From Saprospiraceae bacterium (GTDB taxonomy: Bacteria; Bacteroidota; Bacteroidia; Chitinophagales; Saprospiraceae): a DNA stretch of 64,000 nt. Location: positions 62,001 to 126,000 of the forward strand of contig JAHDIN010000001.1 of the NCBI GenBank assembly GCA_020630775.1. Reading direction: 5' to 3'. Of this stretch, positions 2 through 62,076 are shown piece by piece. Position 1 is the first letter of the stretch. Each line of letters begins with the position of its first letter. Position numbers and translations under genes: made by a program. The notes under the pieces were generated by a model. The model had not been told where the DNA came from, searched no databases, and worked only from the letters and a program-made list of their open reading frames with translations.

Positions 2-3000
2 CCTGTAGCATTTAGTCAAGTTATTAAAGCTCAGGACAATACTCCTCCAAGTATTCACGTAGAAGGATTTACGACTTCTGTAGACCCTTGGGGATGTTCG
101 ACTAAAGTTGTATTCCCAGAGCCTATTCATTTGACTGATAATTGTACTGACAATATTTCATACGTTGTAACGGGTTCAGGATCAACAGATGTCTACGATA
201 TTCATTATGATCCTACTGTTGGATATTATATCGATGAATTACCAGTGGGGCAGCATACATTCTTTTACAATGCTTATGATTGTTGTGATAACGTAGCATC
301 TGAAGGTGTTGTCGTTACAGTAAAGGATGCCACCCCTCCTGTTGCTATAACAAAGCAAGATATTGTTGTTTCATTGATTCCTAATCCAGGTAATACAATC
401 GAACCAGGCCTTACAAAGATATTCGCTGAGAATGTGGATAATGGTTCATTTGATGGTTGTGGTCCTGTGAAATTAGAAATTAGGAGAGAAGAAGAATACT
501 GTGGATTCTTAAATAACCTAACTTTTAATGATGACATGCATCCAAATGATGACACATTAGACTTAGATGAAGGTAAGTATGTTACATTCTGTTGTAATGA
601 CTTAGCGGAATTAGGTCAAGATAGTGATGGCGATGGTATCAATGACTTTGCTCAAATAAAAGTATGGTTAAGAGTTTGGGATGATGGTGATAGAGATGGC
701 ACTTTTGGTTCTGCAGGTGATAACTATAGTGAAGTTTGGTCTTATGTTAGATTAGAAGATAAGTCAAGACCTACTATTGTTTGTCCTGGAGATGTCACTA
801 TTGATTGCGATAGCGATTCTGGCGATCTTACTTTAACTGGTGAAGCTTATGCAGTAAGCTCATGTGGTTCCGCTGGAGTTTATTACGAAGACATAGACAG
901 AGACTTAACTAATTGCAATGAAGGCGTAATTACGAGAAGGTGGTATGTAGATGGAAATCCAGCTATTTTCTGTGATCAAAAAATAACTTTAAGCGGAACG
1001 CTTTATACTGGTCCGATTGAAGTATTCTTCCCTGCAGATACATTGATAGACTGTACTGAGGATCTTGAAAATATTAGACCATACTGGTCTTCTGGAAGAT
1101 GTGATCTTTTAGCTTACAGTGTTGATAGAGATACATTCTTTTTCGCAGATGGTGCATGTTTCAAAATATTGAATTACTGGACTGTAATTGACTGGTGTGT
1201 TTATAACCCAGATGTGGCTAATAGCCCAGGTATTTGGTCTGATGTACAAGTTGTGAAAGTTATTGATAACGATGCACCGATTTTAACTTCGTGTAATGAT
1301 GCTTCATTCCCAGTTGAGGCAGATTGTAAGAATGGAGCTGTAATGCTCACTAACTCTGCGGAAGACTTAGGCGTTTGTAATAGTCAAAAATTACTTTGGA
1401 CAGTTCAAGTCGATATTAATTCGGATTGGATAATTGATTATACATTTTCTAGTACGGCACCTTCTTCAAGCCCGTTCTATGTTCCTCCATCAGATTCTGG
1501 AGAGGAAGTAAAAGTAACATTGCCTGAAGAAGTACATGGAAGTATGGTGAACCACAGAGTTGTGTGGAAAGTAACTGATGGTTGTGGAAACAACACATCA
1601 TGTACATCTTACTTCATGGTTGTAGACCAAATTCCCCCTACACCTTACTGCGTAAACTTGAGTACTGCATTAATGCAAAACGGACAAGTAGAACTTTGGG
1701 CATGTGATTTTGATTTAGGAGCTTTTGATAATTGTACAGCACAAGAAGATTTAAGATTTACATTCTCTGATGTTAATCCAGCAGATGATCCATCTTATCT
1801 TCCAGATACAAAGTGTTCTTCAATGATTTTCACTTGTGAAGATCTTTCTAATCCTGCAGGTACTGTTGTTGAGTTGAAGGTGTATGTATGGGATGAAAAA
1901 GACAATTTTGATTATTGTACAGTATTCTTAACTCTAGTAGATAATCAAGATAGTTGTGATGATGTTGGAGCATTCCCGAGAGCAGATATTGGTGGTTATG
2001 TTGAAAATGAGATGGGAGAGATTGTTGAAGATGTAATGATGGAAATTATTTCTCCACAACCAAATTATCCTGAGTCTCAGATGACAGATAATTCTGGTCA
2101 TTACATGTTTGACAATAACAAATTTGATTTTAACTATCAAGTATCTGGTCACAGAGATAATGACTACTTGAATGGTGTTTCTACATTAGATATTATCGTT
2201 ATTCAAAGACATATATTAGGTCTTCAAACTTTAGATAGTCCATTTAAAATGGTGGCTGCAGATGTGAATAACGATGAATCAATTAGTGCAATTGACCTAA
2301 TCGAATTAAGAAAATTGATTTTAGGTATTTATGATGATCTTCCAAATAATACGAGTTGGAAAATGGTAGATGCTTCTACGATTGTTGATCCTCTAAATCC
2401 TTGGCCTGTAAGCGAGGTTAGAATAATCAATAGCTTAAGCCAAAATATGATGCAGGAGAATTTTGTAGGTGTGAAAGTAGGGGATGTAAATAATACAGCA
2501 ACTGCTAATGCACAACAAACTACAATAGATCGAAGGTCTGCGGATGTATTAGAATTACAATTTACAAATGCTACTTATGCTGAAGGTGACTTAGTTACAA
2601 TGACACTTTCAAACGCTTCTGTATCTAATTTGACAGGATTACAATTCACTTTAAATGCATTTGGATTAGAATTAGTGGAAGTAAAAGGTGAAAACATCTT
2701 TGTAGATGAATCAAATTTTGCTAAGCTTTCTAATACAACAACAACATTCTCTTTGAATTCAGATAGAATTCTAGAAAATGAATTGATATCATTAACTTTT
2801 AAAGCTACATCATCCGGTAAGTTGAGTGATAATGTAGCAATTTCATCTGAAATTACTAAAGCTGAAGCTTACAGCTTAAATTCGAATGAAATAATCCCCG
2901 TTAAACTTGCCGGCCGTAATAATCCTGAACAAGATTATGCATTGTTCCAGAACAACCCGAATCCATTTAGTGGTCAAACTAATATTGACTTCACTCTACC

Positions 3001-3193
3001 ACAACAAGATCAAGCAACGATCTCAGTTATGGATGTAAATGGAAAGGTTCTTTGGTCTATGCAAAATGTATTTGACAAAGGATTAAATACGATTACTATA
3101 GATGAAGAATTGCTTCCAGTTTCTGGAATCCTTTACTATAGATTAGATTCTGGTGACTTCACTGCGACTAAGAAGATGATCAAGATCGATTAA
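2..3193 (+). CDS. Giant secreted protein, 3' part (truncated by window start): Ig/HYR-like Cys-containing repeats, dockerin-like module, cohesin-like domain, T9SS type A C-terminal sorting domain
   Basis: Frame is open from nt 2 (PVAFSQVIKAQDNTPPSIHVEG...), so the listed TTG at 131 is not the start. DYLNGVSTLDI...DVNNDESISAIDLIELRKLILG dockerin-like Ca loops. C-terminal ALFQNNPNPFSGQTNIDFTLP...MDVNGKVL...KKMIKID sorting domain. Confidence 0.9.
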   Translation, partial: PVAFSQVIKAQDNTPPSIHVEGFTTSVDPWGCSTKVVFPEPIHLTDNCTDNISYVVTGSGSTDVYDIHYDPTVGYYIDELPVGQHTFFYNAYDCCDNVASEGVVVTVKDATPPVAITKQDIVVSLIPNPGNTIEPGLTKIFAENVDNGSFDGCGPVKLEIRREEEYCGFLNNLTFNDDMHPNDDTLDLDEGKYVTFCCNDLAELGQDSDGDGINDFAQIKVWLRVWDDGDRDGTFGSAGDNYSEVWSYVRLEDKSRPTIVCPGDVTIDCDSDSGDLTLTGEAYAVSSCGSAGVYYEDIDRDLTNCNEGVITRRWYVDGNPAIFCDQKITLSGTLYTGPIEVFFPADTLIDCTEDLENIRPYWSSGRCDLLAYSVDRDTFFFADGACFKILNYWTVIDWCVYNPDVANSPGIWSDVQVVKVIDNDAPILTSCNDASFPVEADCKNGAVMLTNSAEDLGVCNSQKLLWTVQVDINSDWIIDYTFSSTAPSSSPFYVPPSDSGEEVKVTLPEEVHGSMVNHRVVWKVTDGCGNNTSCTSYFMVVDQIPPTPYCVNLSTALMQNGQVELWACDFDLGAFDNCTAQEDLRFTFSDVNPADDPSYLPDTKCSSMIFTCEDLSNPAGTVVELKVYVWDEKDNFDYCTVFLTLVDNQDSCDDVGAFPRADIGGYVENEMGEIVEDVMMEIISPQPNYPESQMTDNSGHYMFDNNKFDFNYQVSGHRDNDYLNGVSTLDIIVIQRHILGLQTLDSPFKMVAADVNNDESISAIDLIELRKLILGIYDDLPNNTSWKMVDASTIVDPLNPWPVSEVRIINSLSQNMMQENFVGVKVGDVNNTATANAQQTTIDRRSADVLELQFTNATYAEGDLVTMTLSNASVSNLTGLQFTLNAFGLELVEVKGENIFVDESNFAKLSNTTTTFSLNSDRILENELISLTFKATSSGKLSDNVAISSEITKAEAYSLNSNEIIPVKLAGRNNPEQDYALFQNNPNPFSGQTNIDFTLPQQDQATISVMDVNGKVLWSMQNVFDKGLNTITIDEELLPVSGILYYRLDSGDFTATKKMIKID

Positions 3194-3316: not shown

Positions 3317-3991
3317 ATGTCTTTTTCTAAGCACATCATTCAATTTTACGAATCTATGTCTTCAGATTGGAAATTACCTTCTGGCGTAGATTTAATTTAT
3401 CCTTTTGCAGATGATAATGTATGGCATGTTTTCCGAAGCTTTTGTCATAAGTTTTATAACTCGAAAACCGAACGAACTTTTTTATTTGGTATTAATCCCG
3501 GAAGGTTTGGTGCAGGCATGACTGGAGTACCATTTACTGATCCAGTTATTTTAGAAACGCATTGCAATATTCCTAACAACATTAATAAACGACATGAACT
3601 TTCTTGTCTCTTTGTTTATGAAATGATTGAATTATTAGGAGGTGTACAAAGCTTTTACAAGCATTTTTATATTAGCTCTTTATGTCCATTAGGATTTATA
3701 AAGGACAAGAAAAATTACAACTATTATGATGATTCGGAGCTGTTTCTAAAGGTGAGACCTTACATGATCAAAGCGATGGATTATCAAATATCAAAATATT
3801 GCAATCGTCAGGTTGCTTTCTCACTAGGACAAGGAAAGAATTTTAAAGTTTTTAATGAATTAAATGCTGAATTCGGTTGGTTCGATAAAGTTGTTCCATT
3901 ACCTCATCCTAGGTGGGTAATGCAGTATAAGCGAAAAACTAAAGAGATTTACTTGAATGAATATTTAGTTAAATTGAAAGAATGGTGTTAA
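3317..3991 (+). CDS. SMUG2/DUF4918-like uracil-DNA glycosylase superfamily protein
   Basis: GINPGRFGAGMTGVPFTDP (SMUG-type G-x-NPG motif) and C-terminal LPHPRWVMQYKRK. Confidence 0.8.
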   Translation: MSFSKHIIQFYESMSSDWKLPSGVDLIYPFADDNVWHVFRSFCHKFYNSKTERTFLFGINPGRFGAGMTGVPFTDPVILETHCNIPNNINKRHELSCLFVYEMIELLGGVQSFYKHFYISSLCPLGFIKDKKNYNYYDDSELFLKVRPYMIKAMDYQISKYCNRQVAFSLGQGKNFKVFNELNAEFGWFDKVVPLPHPRWVMQYKRKTKEIYLNEYLVKLKEWC

Positions 3992-36300: not shown

Positions 36301-38325
36301 ATGGCTTACGAACTTATTTCAAAGTATAAACCTACGGGTGATCAACCTCAAGCCATTAAGCAGCTTGTTGATGGTGTGAATACAGGTGACCGGTCTCAGG
36401 TCTTATTAGGTGTTACAGGATCAGGTAAAACATTCACAGTTGCGAATGTTATTTCTCAAGTGGAAAAACCTACACTTATACTTACGCATAATAAAACATT
36501 GACGGCTCAGCTTTATAGTGAATTGCAAGAGTTTTTTCCAAATAATGCAGTAGAGTATTTTGTATCTTATTACGACTATTATCAACCTGAGGCTTACATT
36601 TCACATAACGATACTTACATAGAGAAAGATTTATCCATTAATGAAGAGATTGATAAATTAAGGCTAAGAGCCACCTCTTCATTATTGTCGGGCAGAAGGG
36701 ATGTTATTATAGTAGCTTCTGTCAGTTGTATTTTTGGAATGGGTAATCCAGAGGATTATAAGTCGGGCATTATCAGACTGCAAAAAGGCCAAATATTTTC
36801 TAGGAATCAGTTCCTCTATAAGTTGGTCGAAATCCTATATTCTCGTACTGAGACAGATTTTAAAAGAGGCACCTTTAGAGTAAAAGGTGATACCGTTGAT
36901 ATAAACTTGCCTTATGTTGATTATGGATATCGCATCACTTTTTTTGGTGATGAAATTGAAACTATAGATCAGTTTGAAAAAGAAACGGGAAAGCGTATCA
37001 TGTCTCTAGATTTCGCAGCTATTTTTCCAGCGAATCTTTATGTTGCACCCAAGGATCGTTTTAATCATATTATCAAAGAAATCGAAGATGAGCTTTTCCA
37101 GCATGAAAAGTTTTTCGAATCGGAAGGTAGATATATTGAAGCAAAGCGTATAAAGGAGCGTGTCACTTTTGATTTAGAAATGATGCGTGAGCTAGGATAT
37201 TGTAATGGAATTGAAAACTATTCCAGGTTTTTTGATGGTCGTAATCCTGGTACTAGGCCATTCTGTCTCATTGATTATTTTCCTGATGATTTCTTAATTG
37301 TTATTGATGAAAGCCACGTAACCATTCCTCAAGTTAGAGGTATGTGGGGTGGTGATAGAGCAAGGAAATTGAATTTGGTCAATTTTGGTTTCAGGCTTCC
37401 TTCAGCCTTGGATAATCGGCCACTAGATTTTAATGAATTTCAAATGCTCATAAATCAAATCATTTATGTGAGCGCTACTCCCGGTGATTTTGAATTAGAG
37501 CAAACGGAAGGGTTAGTTGTTGAACAAATTGTTAGGCCGACAGGATTGCTAGATCCACCTATAGATGTCAGGCCAAGTTTGAATCAAATTGATGATCTAC
37601 TAGAAGAGATTAATAAAAGAATTAATCTAGAAGAACGTGTTTTAGTGACCACGCTTACTAAACGTATGGCTGAAGAATTAACTAAATACTTGGTTAAACT
37701 GGATATTAAAGTACGTTATATACATTCAGAAGTAGATACTTTAGATAGAGTTGAAATCATCAGAGATTTACGATTAGGTGTATTTGATGTATTAGTGGGT
37801 GTTAATTTATTGAGAGAAGGTTTAGATCTTCCCGAAGTATCATTGGTTGCTGTATTAGACGCAGATAAAGAGGGCTTCCTTAGGAATAATCGATCATTAA
37901 CTCAGACTGCAGGTCGGGCAGCAAGAAATTCAAATGGTTTGGTAATTTTCTATGCAGATAAAATTACTCAGAGCATGCAAGAAACAATAGATGAGACGAA
38001 TAGAAGAAGAGCAGTTCAGATAGCTTATAATGAAGAGCATGGTATTACGCCAACAACCATTAGTAAAACAAGAGAAGAGATTTTAGCTCAAAAGTCAATA
38101 TTGGATATTCGTGGTGGTAAGTCCAAAGCTTACATTGAACCTGAGGAACCAAATATAGCTGCAGACCCTATCATATCATATATGAGTAGAGATCAGCTAG
38201 AAGGAACAATAAAAGATACTGAAGCTAAAATGAAAAAGGCAGCTAAAGAATTAGACTTTATAACTGCGGCACAATACAGAGATGAGTTATTCGCTTTGAA
38301 AAAGAAACTTAAAGCATCTGTATAA
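36301..38325 (+). CDS. uvrB: Excinuclease ABC subunit B
   Basis: [41 protein letters not shown]-terminal UVR motif. Confidence 0.98.
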
Positions 38326-48654: not shown

Positions 48655-48936
48655 ATGAATCTCTATACAAAAGAGAGTAGTAATACTCTGTTTTTCAGAA
48701 GATTATGTGTGTGCTTGTTACTTTGTCTCGCCCTTGTTTTCTTGGGAGGACCATTGACAGCACAAACAGCTCTGATCTCCTCAGAGGCTCATGCAGGATT
48801 AAGTTCTGAGTTTCAGCAACAAGATTTAAATATTGAAGTCATTCAAATCATCGCAAAGACGAAAAATGATGATCTGAGTGGCTTTTGTGCTTTTAAGCTT
48901 AGCACAGTATTTAAGCTTGAGGAATTTAGTAAATGA
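48655..48936 (+). CDS. Small signal-peptide-containing ORF upstream of and overlapping the giant gene
   Basis: FFRRLCVCLLLCLALVFLGGPLTAQ signal peptide; stop overlaps next start (ATGA). Confidence 0.55.
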   Translation: MNLYTKESSNTLFFRRLCVCLLLCLALVFLGGPLTAQTALISSEAHAGLSSEFQQQDLNIEVIQIIAKTKNDDLSGFCAFKLSTVFKLEEFSK

Positions 48937-48956
48937 TAATTTTCAAACTCAATCTC

Positions 48957-51900
48957 ATGGTTTACCTAAAGAAGGTATTTTACGTATTAGCGTTAATAGG
49001 GATGACATTTGCTTTGAACGGGCAATGTGTTCTAATTGACCAAAGTTGTAATTCTAATGGGCCTTTAGGTCCGAATATACTCCCGAATGGAAGTTTTGAA
49101 GACAATGCACTAGGTGGCAGATTTGGTGGCTTTAACCCCAATGATGCTGGTTGGAATTTTTTCGGTGCAGGATTTGGTAACATTTTCGTAGAGAATGGAG
49201 CGAATCCATTTTCTCCATGTGGAGCCTTTCAACCACAGCCTCAGAACGGGAGCAATATGGTAAAGATTTTTGGGCAGTTTACGGGCGGATTCAACGCATC
49301 GGGAGCTTTTTCAAATCCAGTTCCAGTAACACCAGGCAGGACTTATGTAGCTGGTATTTATATGCAATCCCCAAGTGCGGCTACATGTCCAATAGATCAT
49401 ATTGGTAATGGTAGCAATTTTGCAGAAGTACACTTAGAGTGGTACAATGCAGATGGAGACTGTTCATTCACGACATCGCAACAATTCAGAGGCAGCTGGG
49501 CTAATGGAGGTTGGTACGATTTCAGTACTATCTCAGTAGCGCCAGACGATGCTGTATCATGTCAAGTAAGCTACTTCTTTTTCCAGGAGCCTGGATTTGA
49601 TGGAGGAGCTATTTATTATGATAATGCTTATTTACAAGAGCGTTTAGACGGTACAGGAGCTGTAGCGCCATCATTAGCATGTAATGACGCTGTTAATATA
49701 ACAGTAGGATCAGCATGTGAGGCAGCAGTAACGCCGGATTTCTTTTTAGAGAACTATGATGATTTTACAAACGCAGACTTAACCTTAGAAGTATCATTTA
49801 CAGATCATGCTGGCAATGTGTACAATTTGGATGATTTAAGTGGAGCGATAAGCAGCTCATTAACATATACAGTAACAGAGATATGCAGTGGCAACTCATG
49901 TTGGGGTAATGTAACATTTGAAGACAAGACAGAGCCAACAGTAGACTGTGAGTTTTGTCCAGTAGGCGGTATGGGAGATGTCGACGGAGATGGTGTTATT
50001 GATTACGCACCAGAGTGTCAATTAATGTGTTATGAGTTACCATTATTTGAAGAAGGTTACTGGGATAGACTAAGAGATAACTTAATACCAGAAGCAACGG
50101 ATGATTTTGCGGATGACCACACATCAGATAACTGTGAAGAATACAATGAATTCGATATCAGCTACTATGATGTATATGCGAAGAATGGTTGCGATGGCGA
50201 TATCTTACAAAGAACATTCACATTAACGTATACGAAGCCAGATGGTACAATAGGCTATGCAAGTTGTACAAGAGAGTACTTCTTTACACCATTAGATTTA
50301 AGCAGAGTAATAGAAGCACCATTTGTAGAGTTTGGTTCATTATGCATACCTACACCAGTAGAGGACACATTATTACTACCAAAGAAGGTAGTAGAGATTC
50401 CTACATGTAATGTAGATATCAGTCCAGAAGGTATACAAGCGTTTTTTGATATTTCAGGGACAGAAGACCAAGATACAGATGATGATGGTGACGATCCACC
50501 ATTAGATGTAGACTGTGTAGTAGAGAATAACGAAGGGACATGGTTTGCATACCCACACTTTTATATAGAAGGAAGAAACCCAACAGGCCCTCATGCACAA
50601 GCAGTGACATCAGAGATCTGCAACATGATTGTTGGTTATACAGACTTAGAAACAGAAGCATGTGCACCTGGTTGTATGGGTAATATGAAAGTTGTAAGAA
50701 CATGGACAATATTAGATTGGTGTGCTGGAGACTTCATTACATATGATCAAGTGATCAAGTTGGTAGATGATATAGCACCAGACTTAAGCATTAATGATGT
50801 ATTCATGAGTGTAGACCCATGGAAATGTTCAGTAGACGTACCTGTTCCAACTCCAGAACACTTATCAGATAATTGTGATGATAACCTAACAGTAGAGGTA
50901 GTTGGAATCGAAGGCGGATTAAATGTAGTAGGCGGTGTCATCAGAGATGTACCAGTAGGTACAACAACGGTTACGGTACAAACTGCCGATTGCTGTGGTA
51001 ATGTCACAAAAGCAACATTTACAATAACAGTAGAAGATTTAACACCACCAGTACCAGTAGTTAAGCAAAACGTAGTAACGACGTTAACAAACTTAGGTAA
51101 CCCAGTAGATGGAGATGCGAATGGCATAGGAAAAATCTTTGCTACAGATATCGATAACGGAAGTTATGATGGCTGTACAAATGTGACAATAGAAATCAGA
51201 AGACCAAGTGATGATTACTGTGAGGCACAAGATACGTTATGGGGCGATCACGTAGTATTCTGTTGTGCGGACTTAGGAGAGAAAGAAGTAATGTTCAGAG
51301 TAACCGATGTAGCGGGTAATGAAAATATCAGTTGGGCTACAGTACTAGTAGAAAGTAAAGTAGGGACATCAGTATTCTGTCCTGAGAGCATGGTCGTGAC
51401 ATGCGATATGGATTTATTCAATTTTGACATGACAGGCTTTGTAGATGTATACGGACCATGTGGCAGAATAGATATAGATATCGATACACAAGATGTAAGA
51501 GATAGAACAGAGCCAAGAGATAAGCCAGCGACGACACCACCATTATATGATGTTGACGGAGATGGACTACCTGACTTGGTACCTGAGTTCAATACAAGTT
51601 GTGGATTTGGAGCTATCAGAAGACAGTTCAGATCAGATGGAGCGACAATATGCGAGCAGTGGTTTGTTGTAGAACCGATAGACGCCTTTGATGCATCGAC
51701 GATAAGATTCCCTGGTGATGTAGAAGTAGATTGTGACGATTACGACACAGGCGAGCCAACGTGGGAAGCACCAGTATGTAACTTAGTAGGCATGGCTATG
51801 GAGAGTGACACGTTCTTATTCGAGGATGGTGCTTGCTTCAAGATATTAAACCACTGGAGTGTGATTGACTGGTGTGTATTCAACCCAGATGATCCATTTG

Positions 51901-53999
51901 CAGGCGGTAAGTATGGCCACACACAGGTGATCAAAGTAATAGATACAGAAGATCCAGTGGTAAGTGTACCGGATAGTTTATGCTTTGCAGTGACACAAGA
52001 GTGTACAAGTAAAGGGGTAGTACTAACAGGTAGCGCAGAAGATAATGGCGACTGTTCAAGTGATTGGTTAGCATGGCAGATAGTGATAGATGCGTTTGCA
52101 GATTGGACAGAAGACTTTACATATAGCACAGAGCAGCCACAATTAACACCAGCAGGAGAGCCGAATCCATTCCACGTACCAAAGAGTTCAAATGGAGAGG
52201 AGATCAGCATCGTCTTACCTGATGGTATCCAGAGTAGCAAGGTATGGCACAGAGCTGTATGGAGAGCTTATGATGGATGTGGTAACACAAGTAGTGTAAC
52301 GAGATACTTCCAGATTACAGATAAGAAGGCACCAACGCCATACTGCTTGAACTTAAGTACAGCATTAATGTCAAATGGTCAAGTAGAATTATGGGCTATA
52401 GATTTTGATAGAGGAAGTTTTGATAACTGTACAGATAGCGAGAACTTATTATTCACATTTACAGATGTAGCACCACCTGTAAGATGTGATGAGGAATATT
52501 CAAGAGAAGATTGGTATGATGGTACCTTCTGGTACTATGATGCAAGTGAAGCTGTGAATGTAGATCCAGAGGATGACGATGAGGATTGTCCGAACAATGG
52601 CTTTGGAGAGTACCAAGACTTAGGCGACTATGGCGGTGATGTACACAGATGGGAGCCATCAACAAGAAGTTCAGGAAAAGTATTTACAGCTGCAGATGCA
52701 GATGCAAATGGTTTTGTACAAGTACCGATCTATGTATGGGATGAGTGTGGTAACAAAGACTTCTGTTTAGTGAATTTAAGGTTAGTAGACAATGCAGGAG
52801 GCGGAAGTGCAAGAATCACAGGATCGATCAAGACAGAGCAAGGAGAGAGTGTAGAGAATGTGGTGACGCACTTAGATGGGCCGATCAACTTCAGCATGGA
52901 TTACATGACGAATGTAAGTGGCGAGTATGCCTTTGAGAATATGCCGATGTATACAGACTACATGGTAAGTGGTGAGAAGAATGATGACTACTTAAATGGT
53001 GTAAGTACATTGGATATCATCTTAATCCAGAAGCACATCTTAGGAGACGAGTTATTACAGAGTCCTTATCAGATGATAGCAGCGGATGTAAACAATGATA
53101 GAAACATAACAGCACTAGATTTAATAGAATTAAGAAAGCTGATATTAGGCATCAACCAAGCGTTACCAAATAATGGAAGTTGGAAGTTTGTAGATGCAGA
53201 CCAAGAGTTGACAACGATCAATCCATGGTTGTATGATGAGACAAGAATGGTATCAGACTTAGAAGAAGATGCAATAGGGATTGACTTTGTAGGAGTTAAA
53301 GTAGGAGATGTAAACGGAAGTGTCCAATTAGCACAGAGTCAAGAAATAGATAAGAGAAGCGAGAATATCGAGATTGTATTCGAAGATAGAGCTGTAGTGG
53401 AAGGTGAATTAGTAGAGTTAGTATTGAAGACAGAGAGAACAGATGTATATGGTTACCAGTTCACGATGAATACAACAGGCTTAAGTCTAGAGTCAGTGAG
53501 TGGAACAGGAATAGGTGAGGAGCATGTAGCGAGCCATGGCGATAAATTGACGATGAGTTATGGACAATTGAGTCCAATAGCTGAAGGGGAGATGATGGTA
53601 GTAACGATGAAGGCATCAGTTGCAGGTCAGTTAAGTGAAATGATCACATTGAGTAATACAATTACAAGAAGTGAGGCTTATGTAGGCTCAAGCTTAGAAG
53701 AGGTGAATATAGAGTTAAGAGGCGGCGAGCAAGTTGGCGAGTTTGGTTTATATCAGAATGAGCCAAATCCATTTGCAGATCAGACGGTAATAGGATTTGA
53801 TTTACCTGAGGCGGGAAGTGCGAAGATGACGATGTATGATGTAACGGGTAAGATCATAAAAGTGATAGATGGAGATTATGCTAAAGGCTACAACGAGATA
53901 AGAGTAAGCCAAAGCGAGATCAATGCAACAGGCTTAATCTACTACAGATTAGAAACAAACGAACACACTGCAACTCGTCACATGATTGTGATTGAGTAA
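48957..53999 (+). CDS. Giant secreted protein: Ig/HYR-like Cys-rich domains, DxDGDGxxD Ca loops, dockerin-like module, cohesin-like domain, T9SS C-terminal domain; paralog of the 5' edge gene
   Basis: Listed ORF 48933..53999; likely start ATG 48957 (MVYLKKVFYVLALIGMTFALNGQ). DYLNGVSTLDIILIQKHILG...DVNNDRNITALDLIELRKLILG; LYQNEPNPFADQTVIGFDLPEAGSAKMTMYDVTGKIIKV. Confidence 0.92.
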   Translation: MVYLKKVFYVLALIGMTFALNGQCVLIDQSCNSNGPLGPNILPNGSFEDNALGGRFGGFNPNDAGWNFFGAGFGNIFVENGANPFSPCGAFQPQPQNGSNMVKIFGQFTGGFNASGAFSNPVPVTPGRTYVAGIYMQSPSAATCPIDHIGNGSNFAEVHLEWYNADGDCSFTTSQQFRGSWANGGWYDFSTISVAPDDAVSCQVSYFFFQEPGFDGGAIYYDNAYLQERLDGTGAVAPSLACNDAVNITVGSACEAAVTPDFFLENYDDFTNADLTLEVSFTDHAGNVYNLDDLSGAISSSLTYTVTEICSGNSCWGNVTFEDKTEPTVDCEFCPVGGMGDVDGDGVIDYAPECQLMCYELPLFEEGYWDRLRDNLIPEATDDFADDHTSDNCEEYNEFDISYYDVYAKNGCDGDILQRTFTLTYTKPDGTIGYASCTREYFFTPLDLSRVIEAPFVEFGSLCIPTPVEDTLLLPKKVVEIPTCNVDISPEGIQAFFDISGTEDQDTDDDGDDPPLDVDCVVENNEGTWFAYPHFYIEGRNPTGPHAQAVTSEICNMIVGYTDLETEACAPGCMGNMKVVRTWTILDWCAGDFITYDQVIKLVDDIAPDLSINDVFMSVDPWKCSVDVPVPTPEHLSDNCDDNLTVEVVGIEGGLNVVGGVIRDVPVGTTTVTVQTADCCGNVTKATFTITVEDLTPPVPVVKQNVVTTLTNLGNPVDGDANGIGKIFATDIDNGSYDGCTNVTIEIRRPSDDYCEAQDTLWGDHVVFCCADLGEKEVMFRVTDVAGNENISWATVLVESKVGTSVFCPESMVVTCDMDLFNFDMTGFVDVYGPCGRIDIDIDTQDVRDRTEPRDKPATTPPLYDVDGDGLPDLVPEFNTSCGFGAIRRQFRSDGATICEQWFVVEPIDAFDASTIRFPGDVEVDCDDYDTGEPTWEAPVCNLVGMAMESDTFLFEDGACFKILNHWSVIDWCVFNPDDPFAGGKYGHTQVIKVIDTEDPVVSVPDSLCFAVTQECTSKGVVLTGSAEDNGDCSSDWLAWQIVIDAFADWTEDFTYSTEQPQLTPAGEPNPFHVPKSSNGEEISIVLPDGIQSSKVWHRAVWRAYDGCGNTSSVTRYFQITDKKAPTPYCLNLSTALMSNGQVELWAIDFDRGSFDNCTDSENLLFTFTDVAPPVRCDEEYSREDWYDGTFWYYDASEAVNVDPEDDDEDCPNNGFGEYQDLGDYGGDVHRWEPSTRSSGKVFTAADADANGFVQVPIYVWDECGNKDFCLVNLRLVDNAGGGSARITGSIKTEQGESVENVVTHLDGPINFSMDYMTNVSGEYAFENMPMYTDYMVSGEKNDDYLNGVSTLDIILIQKHILGDELLQSPYQMIAADVNNDRNITALDLIELRKLILGINQALPNNGSWKFVDADQELTTINPWLYDETRMVSDLEEDAIGIDFVGVKVGDVNGSVQLAQSQEIDKRSENIEIVFEDRAVVEGELVELVLKTERTDVYGYQFTMNTTGLSLESVSGTGIGEEHVASHGDKLTMSYGQLSPIAEGEMMVVTMKASVAGQLSEMITLSNTITRSEAYVGSSLEEVNIELRGGEQVGEFGLYQNEPNPFADQTVIGFDLPEAGSAKMTMYDVTGKIIKVIDGDYAKGYNEIRVSQSEINATGLIYYRLETNEHTATRHMIVIE

Positions 54000-58938: not shown

Positions 58939-61900
58939 ATGAAGAATATATTGACCATTTCTTTAATATGCTTAAGCTTTATGCTTCATGGACAAAAAGA
59001 AAAGCATATCAATCCACTTTTAGAAAATATTGATATTAAACCAATTATAGTGACTCAAGATTTAAGAGTCAAAAACATGGAAGCAACTAAAGGTTTTGAT
59101 ATCAATATGTTCCAGAAACCTGATATATCAAAACTGAACGGATTAAATATTGATGTAAAGGCGTCTGAAGATGGAATTTTATCTTGGTTTACTGCTGATG
59201 TCTCTCAAAATAAAAGTGCTTCGATGAAAGCCAAAGTTGATAATTGGTTTTCAAGTCTTTCTAAAAAATTGAATATAGACTTAGAAAAAGAATCATTTCA
59301 AATAAAAAATGTCTCCATTGATAAAAATGGAAACAAACACATCAAAGTCCAACAATATCATAATGGAATAAAGGTATTAGGTGGAGAGATAATATTACAT
59401 ACTAAAGAAGAAGAGATTTATTTGCAAAATGGTAGATACATACCATCTGAATCTTTTATTAAAGAGAATGATCAGCCAATATCTGAAGACAGAGTTCTTG
59501 AAAACATTAAATCTACTTTATCAAATTTCGATGAGCAATGGAATACCTTGAATAAATTGGAGTATACCTTTAATGCTGATCAGATTTCAAAGGAATTGGT
59601 TTATACAAAAATCAATAGTGAATATAAAAAAGCATATCACATAGAGATCTATCCTAACCTAGGCGAACATTTGACTTACATTATTGATGCAGTAACTGGA
59701 AAGACAATAAAAGAATATTCTACTGTATGTAGATTTCATAATCATGACAATGAAGGATTTGCTCCATCTACCGATAATAGTAATAAACATCATGACCATT
59801 CACAATGTAAACATAATACAGCTCTTGATGGATTAGCAGAAGCAGATGCATTCGATTTGCTCAATCAAGTGCGTAGAATTAATACTTACGATGTATCCGA
59901 TAACTTCTTTTTAATTGATGCATCTAGAACAATGTTTAATCAATCAAATTCTAACATGCCGGATAATCCGAGTGGTGTAATTTGGACGATTGACATGAAT
60001 AATGCCTCACCAATTAATAATGATGCAGATTATTTTCATGTTGTCTCTCAAGATAATACTTGGGGTGAATCACGAGAAGGTGTATCCGCTCATTATAATG
60101 CAGGCGAAGCTTATGAGTATTTTAAAAATGTTCATGGTAGAGAATCTATAAGTGGTAATGGGCAGAATATTATATCATTTGTTAATGTTGCCAACGAAGA
60201 TGGTACTTCAATGGGAAATGCCTTTTGGAATGGTTTGGGAATATTTTATGGTAATGGTGATTCAGATTTTCTGCCGTTAGGAAGAGGCTTAGATGTTGCA
60301 GGTCATGAGATTTCTCATGGTGTTATTCAGGCAACAGGAAACATGGAGTATTTTGGTGAACCAGGTGCTCTAAATGAATCTTTTGCAGATATTTTTGGTG
60401 CTATGATTGATAGGGAAGATTGGTTAATCGGGGAAGATGTATTAAGATCTGGAAGTGCATTAAGAAGTATGCAAGACCCGCATAATGGAGCAGCAACTGG
60501 TGATATAAGAGGTGGTTGGCAACCAAAACATTATAATGAAAGGTATACAGGCTCCGAAGATAACGGGGGTGTTCATATAAATAGTGGTATCCCTAATCAT
60601 GCCTTTTATCTTTTTGCGACCAATACTTCCAAAGAAATTGCGGAAAGAACTTACTATCACGCACTTATTAATTACATGACGAGGTCGTCTAATTTTACAG
60701 ATTGCCGTAACGCGATAATTCAGTCTTCTCAGGATCTTTATGGGAATAATCCTTCAGTAGCACAAGCAGCTGCATCAGCATTTGATCAAGTAGGTATTAC
60801 TGGAAATGGTGGCGGAGGAACAAATCTTCAAAACTTAGAAACCAATCCAGGGGATGATCTTCTATTATTTGCGGATCCAGATTTATCAAATCTATTTCTT
60901 ATAAATATCACTACAGCAAGTGTAGTTTTTAATCCTTTGACAACTACAGATATACATTCTAAACCTTCGGTTACTGATGATGGAAGTGCTATTGTATTTA
61001 TTGGTGCAGATCGAAGAGCTTATGTCATTAATATTGACTGGTCTGTGGATCCCCCAGTTATGCAAGAGCGCGTATTAATTGATCAACCGATCTGGGATAA
61101 TATTATTGTATCTAAAGATGGATCCAGAATTGCTGGAACCTTCAGCTTACAAAACCCTGAAGATAATCCTCAAAATAGAACTATCTGGGTATATGATTTT
61201 GCTACTGATTCAGAACAAGAATTCGTTTTGTTCAATCCTACTTTTACAGAAGGTCTTTCTACTGGAAATGTACTCTATCCAGATGCAATGGAGTTTGATG
61301 CTTCAGGAAATTATGTAATGTATGATGCCTTAAATAGAATTAATGGATCTACTGGAGGGGAGATCGAGTATTGGGATGTTGGATTCCTTGAAGTGTGGAA
61401 TCAAAATGCAAATACATGGTCTTTAGGCAAAATTGAAAAACTGTTTGGATCACTTCCAGAGGGCATAAGTGTCGGCAATCCTACATTTTCTAAAAATTCA
61501 CCATTCATTATTGCCTTAGATTATATTGAAGAAAATAATAACCAAATTTTAGGTGTAAATATTGAAACTGGAGATATAGGTGAGATATTCGAAAATATAG
61601 GACTCGGCTATCCAGCTTATTCAAAAGATGATCAGTTTTTAATTTATGATTACAATGTATTCAGTCCAACAGAATTAGGAATATTACAATTGGATCAGAC
61701 AAAAATTGGGCGAGTTCCGAACTCTGATAATTTTTTCTTTTCAAATTCTCAGCCTTCAAAATGGGGGGTTTGGTTTAGTAATGGAAATAGAGTTCTTACA
61801 AGCTCAGAGGAAGTTCAACTTAATGAATCTGAATGGAGAATAACACCTAATCCAGCATCTGATATTATTCATTTAATTAATGGAGACAATAGCTTTTCGG

Positions 61901-62076
61901 GAACAGCAGAGTTTCAGATTTATGATATATCAGGTAAGTTAGTTTTATCTAATTCACTTGATTTACGAGGTAGTATTTCTGAGGATATTGAAATTAGATC
62001 TTTGCAAAATGGCCTTTATGTTTTTCATCTTAAATATAAAGACCAACTATGGACGACAACTTTTGTGAAAGAATAG
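58939..62076 (+). CDS. M4 (thermolysin) family metallopeptidase with propeptide, TolB/propeller-like C-terminal region and T9SS sorting domain
   Basis: [35 protein letters not shown] (HExxH...E); C-terminal [18 protein letters not shown]...[13 protein letters not shown]. Confidence 0.92.
   Translation: [1045 protein letters not shown]

Follow-up and report, generated by a model that had tools for sequence, protein, structure and literature searches.

A dockerin–cohesin cassette on T9SS-exported proteins of the Saprospiraceae, predicted to dock in trans onto scaffoldin-like cohesin arrays

Introduction

Cohesin–dockerin pairs are best known from cellulosomes, and the clostridial representatives (CipA/CipC, ScaB) combine the same dockerin and cohesin families that concern us here with scaffoldins that carry several cohesins in tandem. 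The subject of this work is a gene at the beginning of a 64,000-nucleotide stretch of a Saprospiraceae genome (assembly GCA_020630775.1, contig JAHDIN010000001.1, here C5, positions 62001-126000; hereafter the window), which encodes a protein exported by the type IX secretion system (T9SS) with a dockerin and a cohesin in the same polypeptide. Compared with the clostridial cellulosome, this system relies on T9SS export, places a cohesin on every T9SS dockerin protein and embeds the dockerin in a composite with an immunoglobulin-like (Ig-like) domain, while SprB repeats and a CHU_C domain stand in place of SLH or sortase anchors.

Cohesins and dockerins outside cellulosomes, including both in one protein, are already known. 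Archaeoglobus fulgidus has a cohesin and a dockerin in one polypeptide, in few copies per genome and with no arrays, and a 2009 survey of noncellulosomal cohesins and dockerins by Peer et al. reportedly included cases of both in one protein; the Saprospiraceae differ from these cases in having about a dozen copies, cohesin arrays and conservation across the whole family. Anaerobic methanotrophic (ANME) archaea encode non-cellulosomal scaffoldin-like proteins in which a single dockerin is combined with as many as five cohesins, and binding has been verified for archaeal versions of the two modules; unlike the proteins described here, they occur in S-layer and ABC-transporter contexts, with no T9SS and with cargo that varies between close relatives (PMC9012536). 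For Candidatus Stygibacter (Cloacimonadota), a cellulosome-like complex has been inferred in which a surface-anchored scaffoldin with carbohydrate-binding modules (CBMs) is combined with dockerins on glycosidases and peptidases; its dockerin proteins are secreted, as they are here, and a cis dockerin–cohesin cassette is not described there (PMC8542988).

In the literature searched, we found no account of the Saprospiraceae dockerin–cohesin set. As far as we have checked, the universal cis cassette, the Ig-dockerin composite, the SprB/CHU_C scaffoldins accompanied by PorP/SprF, the mostly enzyme-free cargo and the family-wide conservation are new. Cohesin–dockerin sets are the rule in this abundant environmental family of Bacteroidota, on T9SS-exported proteins, and the scanned proteins give no hint of cellulases. 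We predict, with a probability of roughly 0.6, that the dockerins dock in trans onto the cohesin arrays of scaffoldins, possibly also between neighbouring molecules. If real, this binding would provide a concrete mechanism for organising large surface proteins in these bacteria, as well as new plug-and-socket modules for protein engineering.

Results and discussion

The window opens inside the gene, whose start lies upstream: a long open frame on the + strand (2..3193) encodes the C-terminal 1063 aa of the dockerin–cohesin protein, and the complete gene in the source genome (G000:C5:60994-65193) encodes 1399 aa. In this frame, an Ig-like domain of the SdrD_B/CarboxypepD_reg-like kind (1979..2155) is fused to a dockerin (2156..2328), which is followed by a conserved tail of the composite (SWKMV...NFVGVKVGDVNN; 2329..2515), a cohesin (2540..2926) and a type A T9SS C-terminal sorting domain (2942..3190), all on the + strand. 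An initial annotation, made from the sequence alone, had proposed a dockerin and a cohesin-like module in cis in a T9SS-secreted protein, with the sorting domain after the cohesin-like module. Pfam, profile searches, the fold and the sorting domain bear this out, the last with Por_Secre_tail (PF18962, 28.7 bits) and TIGR04183 (39.4 bits) matches at the C terminus in Pfam and NCBIfam.

The dockerin was recognised by Pfam, by the composition of its loops and by profile matches to dockerins in the PDB. Dockerin_1 (PF00404) matches residues 726-774 of the window protein at 25.8 bits (cutoff 22.9), one of 16 dockerin matches above the Pfam cutoff in the source genome, and the profile of its own family matches with E = 8e-35. 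Against PDB dockerins the family profile reaches E values down to 6.5e-8, with ScaB and Cel dockerins among the matches. The paired calcium-loop/helix repeats that had been called typical of type I dockerins are indeed two in number, but only the second loop (2261-2296; D-x-N-x-D...S/T-x-x-D) is canonical; the first (2156-2191) is atypical, with Leu at position 5. Leu or Met occupies this position in most of 251 family sequences, in which D12 is present in 100% and D3 in 72%. The helices of the window dockerin span residues 72-82, 91-97 and 107-118 of the analysed segment, and across the 251 sequences they carry conserved polar residues (His, Arg/Lys and Arg-Lys), the Arg-Lys of helix 3 falling at what we take to be known recognition positions.

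Overlooked by the initial annotation was the embedding of the dockerin in a composite of about 180 aa, with the Ig-like domain before it and a conserved tail ending in '...GVKxGDVN' after it. Approximately 60 residues C-terminal to the dockerin are conserved, including invariant Trp, Lys, Gly and Asp residues, both in 79 relatives, where the estimate is biased because these sequences were gathered with dockerin and tail patterns, and likewise in 15 paralogs from the source genome that were picked by the Pfam dockerin alone. AlphaFold modelled the Ig-dockerin-tail composite (182 residues) as one rigid unit, with a predicted local distance difference test (pLDDT) score of 95 and a predicted template modelling (pTM) score of 0.88. 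The Ig-like domain forms strands over residues 4-62 at pLDDT ~97, resembles the SdrD B domain and CnaB-type structures in Foldseek and has a weak Pfam SdrD_B match; the tail likewise contributes strands. In mean-field direct coupling analysis (DCA) of the 251 sequences (effective number 243), Ig-tail, Ig-dockerin and dockerin-tail pairs were among the strongest couplings. The top 50 Foldseek matches of the composite model were Ig/CnaB-type and other unrelated structures and included no dockerin, so that the identity of the dockerin rests on sequence.

The cohesin escaped the Pfam scan of the single window protein, and profiles were used instead. Taken alone, the window cohesin matches PF00963 at 18.5 bits (E 0.0023), under the cutoff of 24.1, while 21 of 45 aligned homologous segments match at E <= 0.01, the best at 2.2e-12. 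The cutoff is passed at six places in the source genome, several of them (such as C21, C27 and C5:48779) immediately following one of this family's dockerins, and cohesins above it include those at C21 (45.6 bits) and in the sister-genome protein L269 (110.4 bits). A profile of the window segment finds structurally characterised type II cohesins (3l8q at E 6.6e-8 and, with weaker scores, 1qzn and others). An AlphaFold2 model of residues 657-1063, built with 79 sequences (pLDDT 93, pTM 0.78), has the cohesin jelly-roll fold and resembles cohesins of several cellulosomes in Foldseek: 2w1n at rank 1, 5nrk_A (TM score 0.67 by target length, root-mean-square deviation 3.3), 4dh2 and 4ums. Because of the Pfam matches of its relatives, the profile matches and the fold match, we accept the module of about 130 residues, for which a cohesin resemblance had been noted at the outset, as a cohesin. 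Residues on its face are conserved (Gln 98%, Ser 88%, Glu 94%, Tyr 98%), and couplings inside the module link T227-T296, T259-T296 and G223-S261. The almost invariant Gln sits on the third strand, presumably where clostridial cohesins have a dockerin-contacting residue; to judge from sequence, this Gln and the conserved polar residues of the dockerin helices fit a shared interface.

Pairing of the two modules in cis is systematic throughout the family. The dockerin profile matches 135 of 150 sampled Saprospiraceae genomes and 102 of 112 genera, with about a dozen copies per carrying genome, compared to none of six genomes from other families of the same order and 3 of 196 elsewhere in the class. 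Among the relatives found by pattern, those with names are nearly all Saprospiraceae, and we infer that the remaining sampled genomes belong to this family as well. At 169 sites selected on the dockerin alone and with enough downstream sequence, a cohesin was found by profile 20-150 aa downstream in 160, and the other nine show a divergent cohesin by eye. Chance resemblance was rejected, since the arrangement is conserved over about 100 genera. In the cultured species Portibacter marinus there are 12 dockerins, and a protein of 1019 aa with three cohesins in tandem is encoded ~6.6 kb from a dockerin module; this organism makes the docking proposal testable.

Several observations concern the range of these proteins. 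Some dockerin–cohesin proteins are giant, a single frame encoding 4000-7700 aa (G000:C5:188386-188562, with comparable frames in G002 and G001), and the largest in other genomes reach 9227 aa (G099:C15). Saprospiraceae-like dockerin–cohesin genes (L059, L062) were also seen on contigs filed under Alphaproteobacteria and Acidimicrobiales metagenome-assembled genomes, which are probably misbinned. A further protein of the source genome, L051 (G000:C77:48384-50889), is unrelated and has a looser dockerin-then-cohesin order with a sorting-domain-like tail, a layout suggesting either several origins of the cis order or a greater age.

By searching for cohesins that are not preceded by a dockerin, we found scaffoldin-like proteins with cohesins in tandem. 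In the source genome, the array protein L267 (C5:36191-40051) is encoded on the same contig as the window and has three cohesins (E 1.7e-38, 3.4e-35 and 1.7e-29 with the array profile), which lie at C5:36251-36616, 36749-37099 and 37187-37519, and in sister genomes there are eight tandem cohesins in L269 and seven in L247 and L250, in each case in one secreted protein. Array proteins have a signal peptide and carry their cohesins towards the N terminus, together with SprB repeats and a CHU_C type B sorting domain; the array gene has matches to CHU_C (7.8e-20), TIGR04131 (40.5 bits) and SprB (2.5e-13) and lies next to a PorP_SprF gene (4.5e-47). SprB repeats, a type B sorting domain and a downstream PorP/SprF are features shared with the SprB gliding adhesin, from which the array protein differs by its N-terminal tandem cohesins; to our knowledge these are not part of described SprB proteins. 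Pfam Cohesin matches in array proteins reach E values down to 1.1e-31. The three source-genome array cohesins are not reported by Pfam at E <= 0.01, and their identification therefore rests on the array profile and on the ortholog L268 (Pfam E 1.1e-13). The array-cohesin profile matches the CipC cohesin 2vn5_A over its full length (E 1.3e-8) and the cis-cohesin profile at 97.5% in hhalign.

Arrays and dockerin genes are linked. In the source genome the order is a LuxR-type regulator, a dockerin protein, the array protein, PorP/SprF, a small protein and two further dockerin proteins; the window gene lies beyond unrelated genes, its start ~21 kb past the end of the array gene. Nine genomes of the genus bear an array. 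In six of them it begins ~1.2 kb downstream of a dockerin module encoded on the same strand, which places it immediately adjacent, and in two others it lies <5 kb from one. Genomes of other genera show the arrangement too (G032, G084, G096, G099, G108, G115 and G123), and PorP/SprF directly follows the array in ten loci.

These arrays bear directly on the idea, raised by the initial annotation, that dockerins bind the cis-type cohesins of other copies or paralogs and so build head-to-tail or lateral chains on the surface with no separate scaffoldin. The premise does not survive, as multi-cohesin SprB/type B proteins are encoded on the same contig and throughout the genus, and a scaffoldin-free system was rejected on this ground. 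Docking between neighbours as the sole arrangement would account for the universal cis pairing and for the conserved face residues of the cohesin, which covary among themselves; yet separate scaffoldin-like arrays are linked to the dockerin genes, and couplings between dockerin and cis cohesin are at or below background (see below), and we regard it as doubtful.

A cellulosome was likewise rejected: Pfam found no glycoside hydrolase or CBM in the scanned dockerin and array proteins, which instead carry Ig, HYR, PKD, DUF11 and SprB domains and, in one case, a redoxin. This AhpC/TSA (redoxin)-dockerin protein (L309; G000:C67:53371-54396), with orthologs (L310-L315) in six sister genomes, has a signal peptide and a dockerin with a shortened composite that ends at 'KTGDVDGK'; it and its orthologs have neither a cohesin nor a T9SS sorting domain. 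Without a cohesin of its own it could only dock in trans, and together with the cohesin arrays it is the reason why docking in trans is favoured. Given the missing T9SS domain, the redoxin protein may have a periplasmic role.

The cis dockerin–cohesin proteins are most likely used for surface assembly. In the arrangement we propose, this C-terminal region would serve as the docking cassette for a surface protein that is exported by T9SS and is probably adhesive, with the Ig-dockerin composite as a plug, the neighbouring cis cohesin as a socket and the type A sorting domain providing for export and allowing cell-surface anchoring. In each cell, a dozen or more of these proteins would use their nearly identical dockerins to dock in trans, in a calcium-dependent manner, onto cohesins; the main sockets would be the three to eight tandem cohesins of the scaffoldin-like proteins, whose genes neighbour dockerin genes and PorP/SprF. 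A second level, the cross-linking of neighbours, may be provided by the cis cohesins. More speculatively, and with little confidence on our part, the family could share a non-enzymatic 'adhesosome', in which a dozen or more type A adhesins are plugged into SprB-like type B scaffoldins, possibly carried by the gliding machinery, while cis cohesins cross-link the surface net.

Couplings between the modules were compared in the same DCA. Dockerin–cis-cohesin couplings did not exceed those of unrelated module pairs, which served as background (1 of the top 150, relative frequency 0.07), while couplings within the composite and within the cohesin were recovered. This speaks against a dedicated lid or a self-specific dockerin–cohesin pair, although the test is weak because the dockerins are nearly uniform (mean pairwise difference 0.38, compared to 0.75 for the cis cohesins) and uniform columns cannot covary. 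Near-uniform dockerins are as expected for promiscuous docking. A mirror-tree comparison was uninformative, with a dockerin–cohesin correlation (r = 0.24) not above that between dockerin and sorting domain (r = 0.31).

Two further alternatives concern the single chain. A closed state, in which the protein's own cohesin caps the dockerin as a lid until export, cleavage or a change in calcium releases it, would suit the short, flexible joint of about 15 residues between composite and cohesin and the fairly defined arrangement of the four-part chain implied by its pTM of 0.78; with dockerin–cohesin coupling lacking where couplings within each part were recovered, we consider such a lid highly improbable. 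Alternatively, the region could be a structural stalk with no role in recognition, in which a calcium-stabilised Ig-dockerin composite and a cohesin-fold spacer present the adhesive body and lead to the sorting domain. The tightly coupled, rigid unit formed by Ig, dockerin and tail, the divergence of the cohesins, the lack of dockerin–cohesin coevolution and the chain pTM all agree with a stalk, but it leaves unexplained the arrays beside dockerin genes, the joint presence and absence of the two modules and the redoxin-dockerin protein that has no cohesin, and we therefore think it quite unlikely.

Co-occurrence speaks for docking in trans onto the arrays, with reservations, and several other points weigh against it. 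Over the 150 genomes, 135 have both the dockerin and cohesins matched by the array profile, 13 neither, two the cohesins only and none the dockerin only, a co-occurrence whose significance (Fisher p 6e-17) is inflated because co-occurrence, like adjacency, is phylogenetically non-independent, and which is partly circular because the array profile also matches some cis cohesins (1e-18 to 1e-7 for the cis copies of the source genome). The strong divergence of the cis cohesins is odd for a shared socket, and it may also be that cohesin domains simply act as spacers. Judging by its residues, the atypical first loop may have cost the dockerin one of its two calcium sites; the modelled pTM of the four-part chain would fit intramolecular packing; and the redoxin-dockerin protein, having no T9SS domain, may not reach the cell surface.

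Other cohesin-bearing layouts were also seen. L040 (G000:C7:377-5380, - strand) and L266 have an N-terminal cohesin, one or two cohesins in mid-protein, and a C-terminal dockerin and cohesin with a type A tail; this domain order is adaptor-scaffoldin-like, and their dockerin/cohesin make-up is like that of the ANME proteins. Two tandem cohesins are combined with a type A sorting domain in L136 (G000:C36), while L271 (G008:C313) has two tandem cohesins and a second, weak dockerin.

Finally, the window contains a second paralog of 1688 aa on the + strand (48933..53999), with a signal peptide, an Ig/HYR-like body, an Ig-dockerin composite, a cohesin and a type A sorting domain. Its dockerin (52974..53156, + strand) scores 27.7 bits in Pfam and E 5e-34 with the profile of its own family, and its cohesin (53358..53732, + strand) matches the corresponding cohesin profile with E 7.6e-36. 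Immediately downstream of the first dockerin gene, positions 3317-3991 encode a uracil-DNA glycosylase superfamily protein with no evident link to it, and the window also encodes, at 58939-62076, an M4/thermolysin-like metalloprotease that carries a type A T9SS sorting domain.
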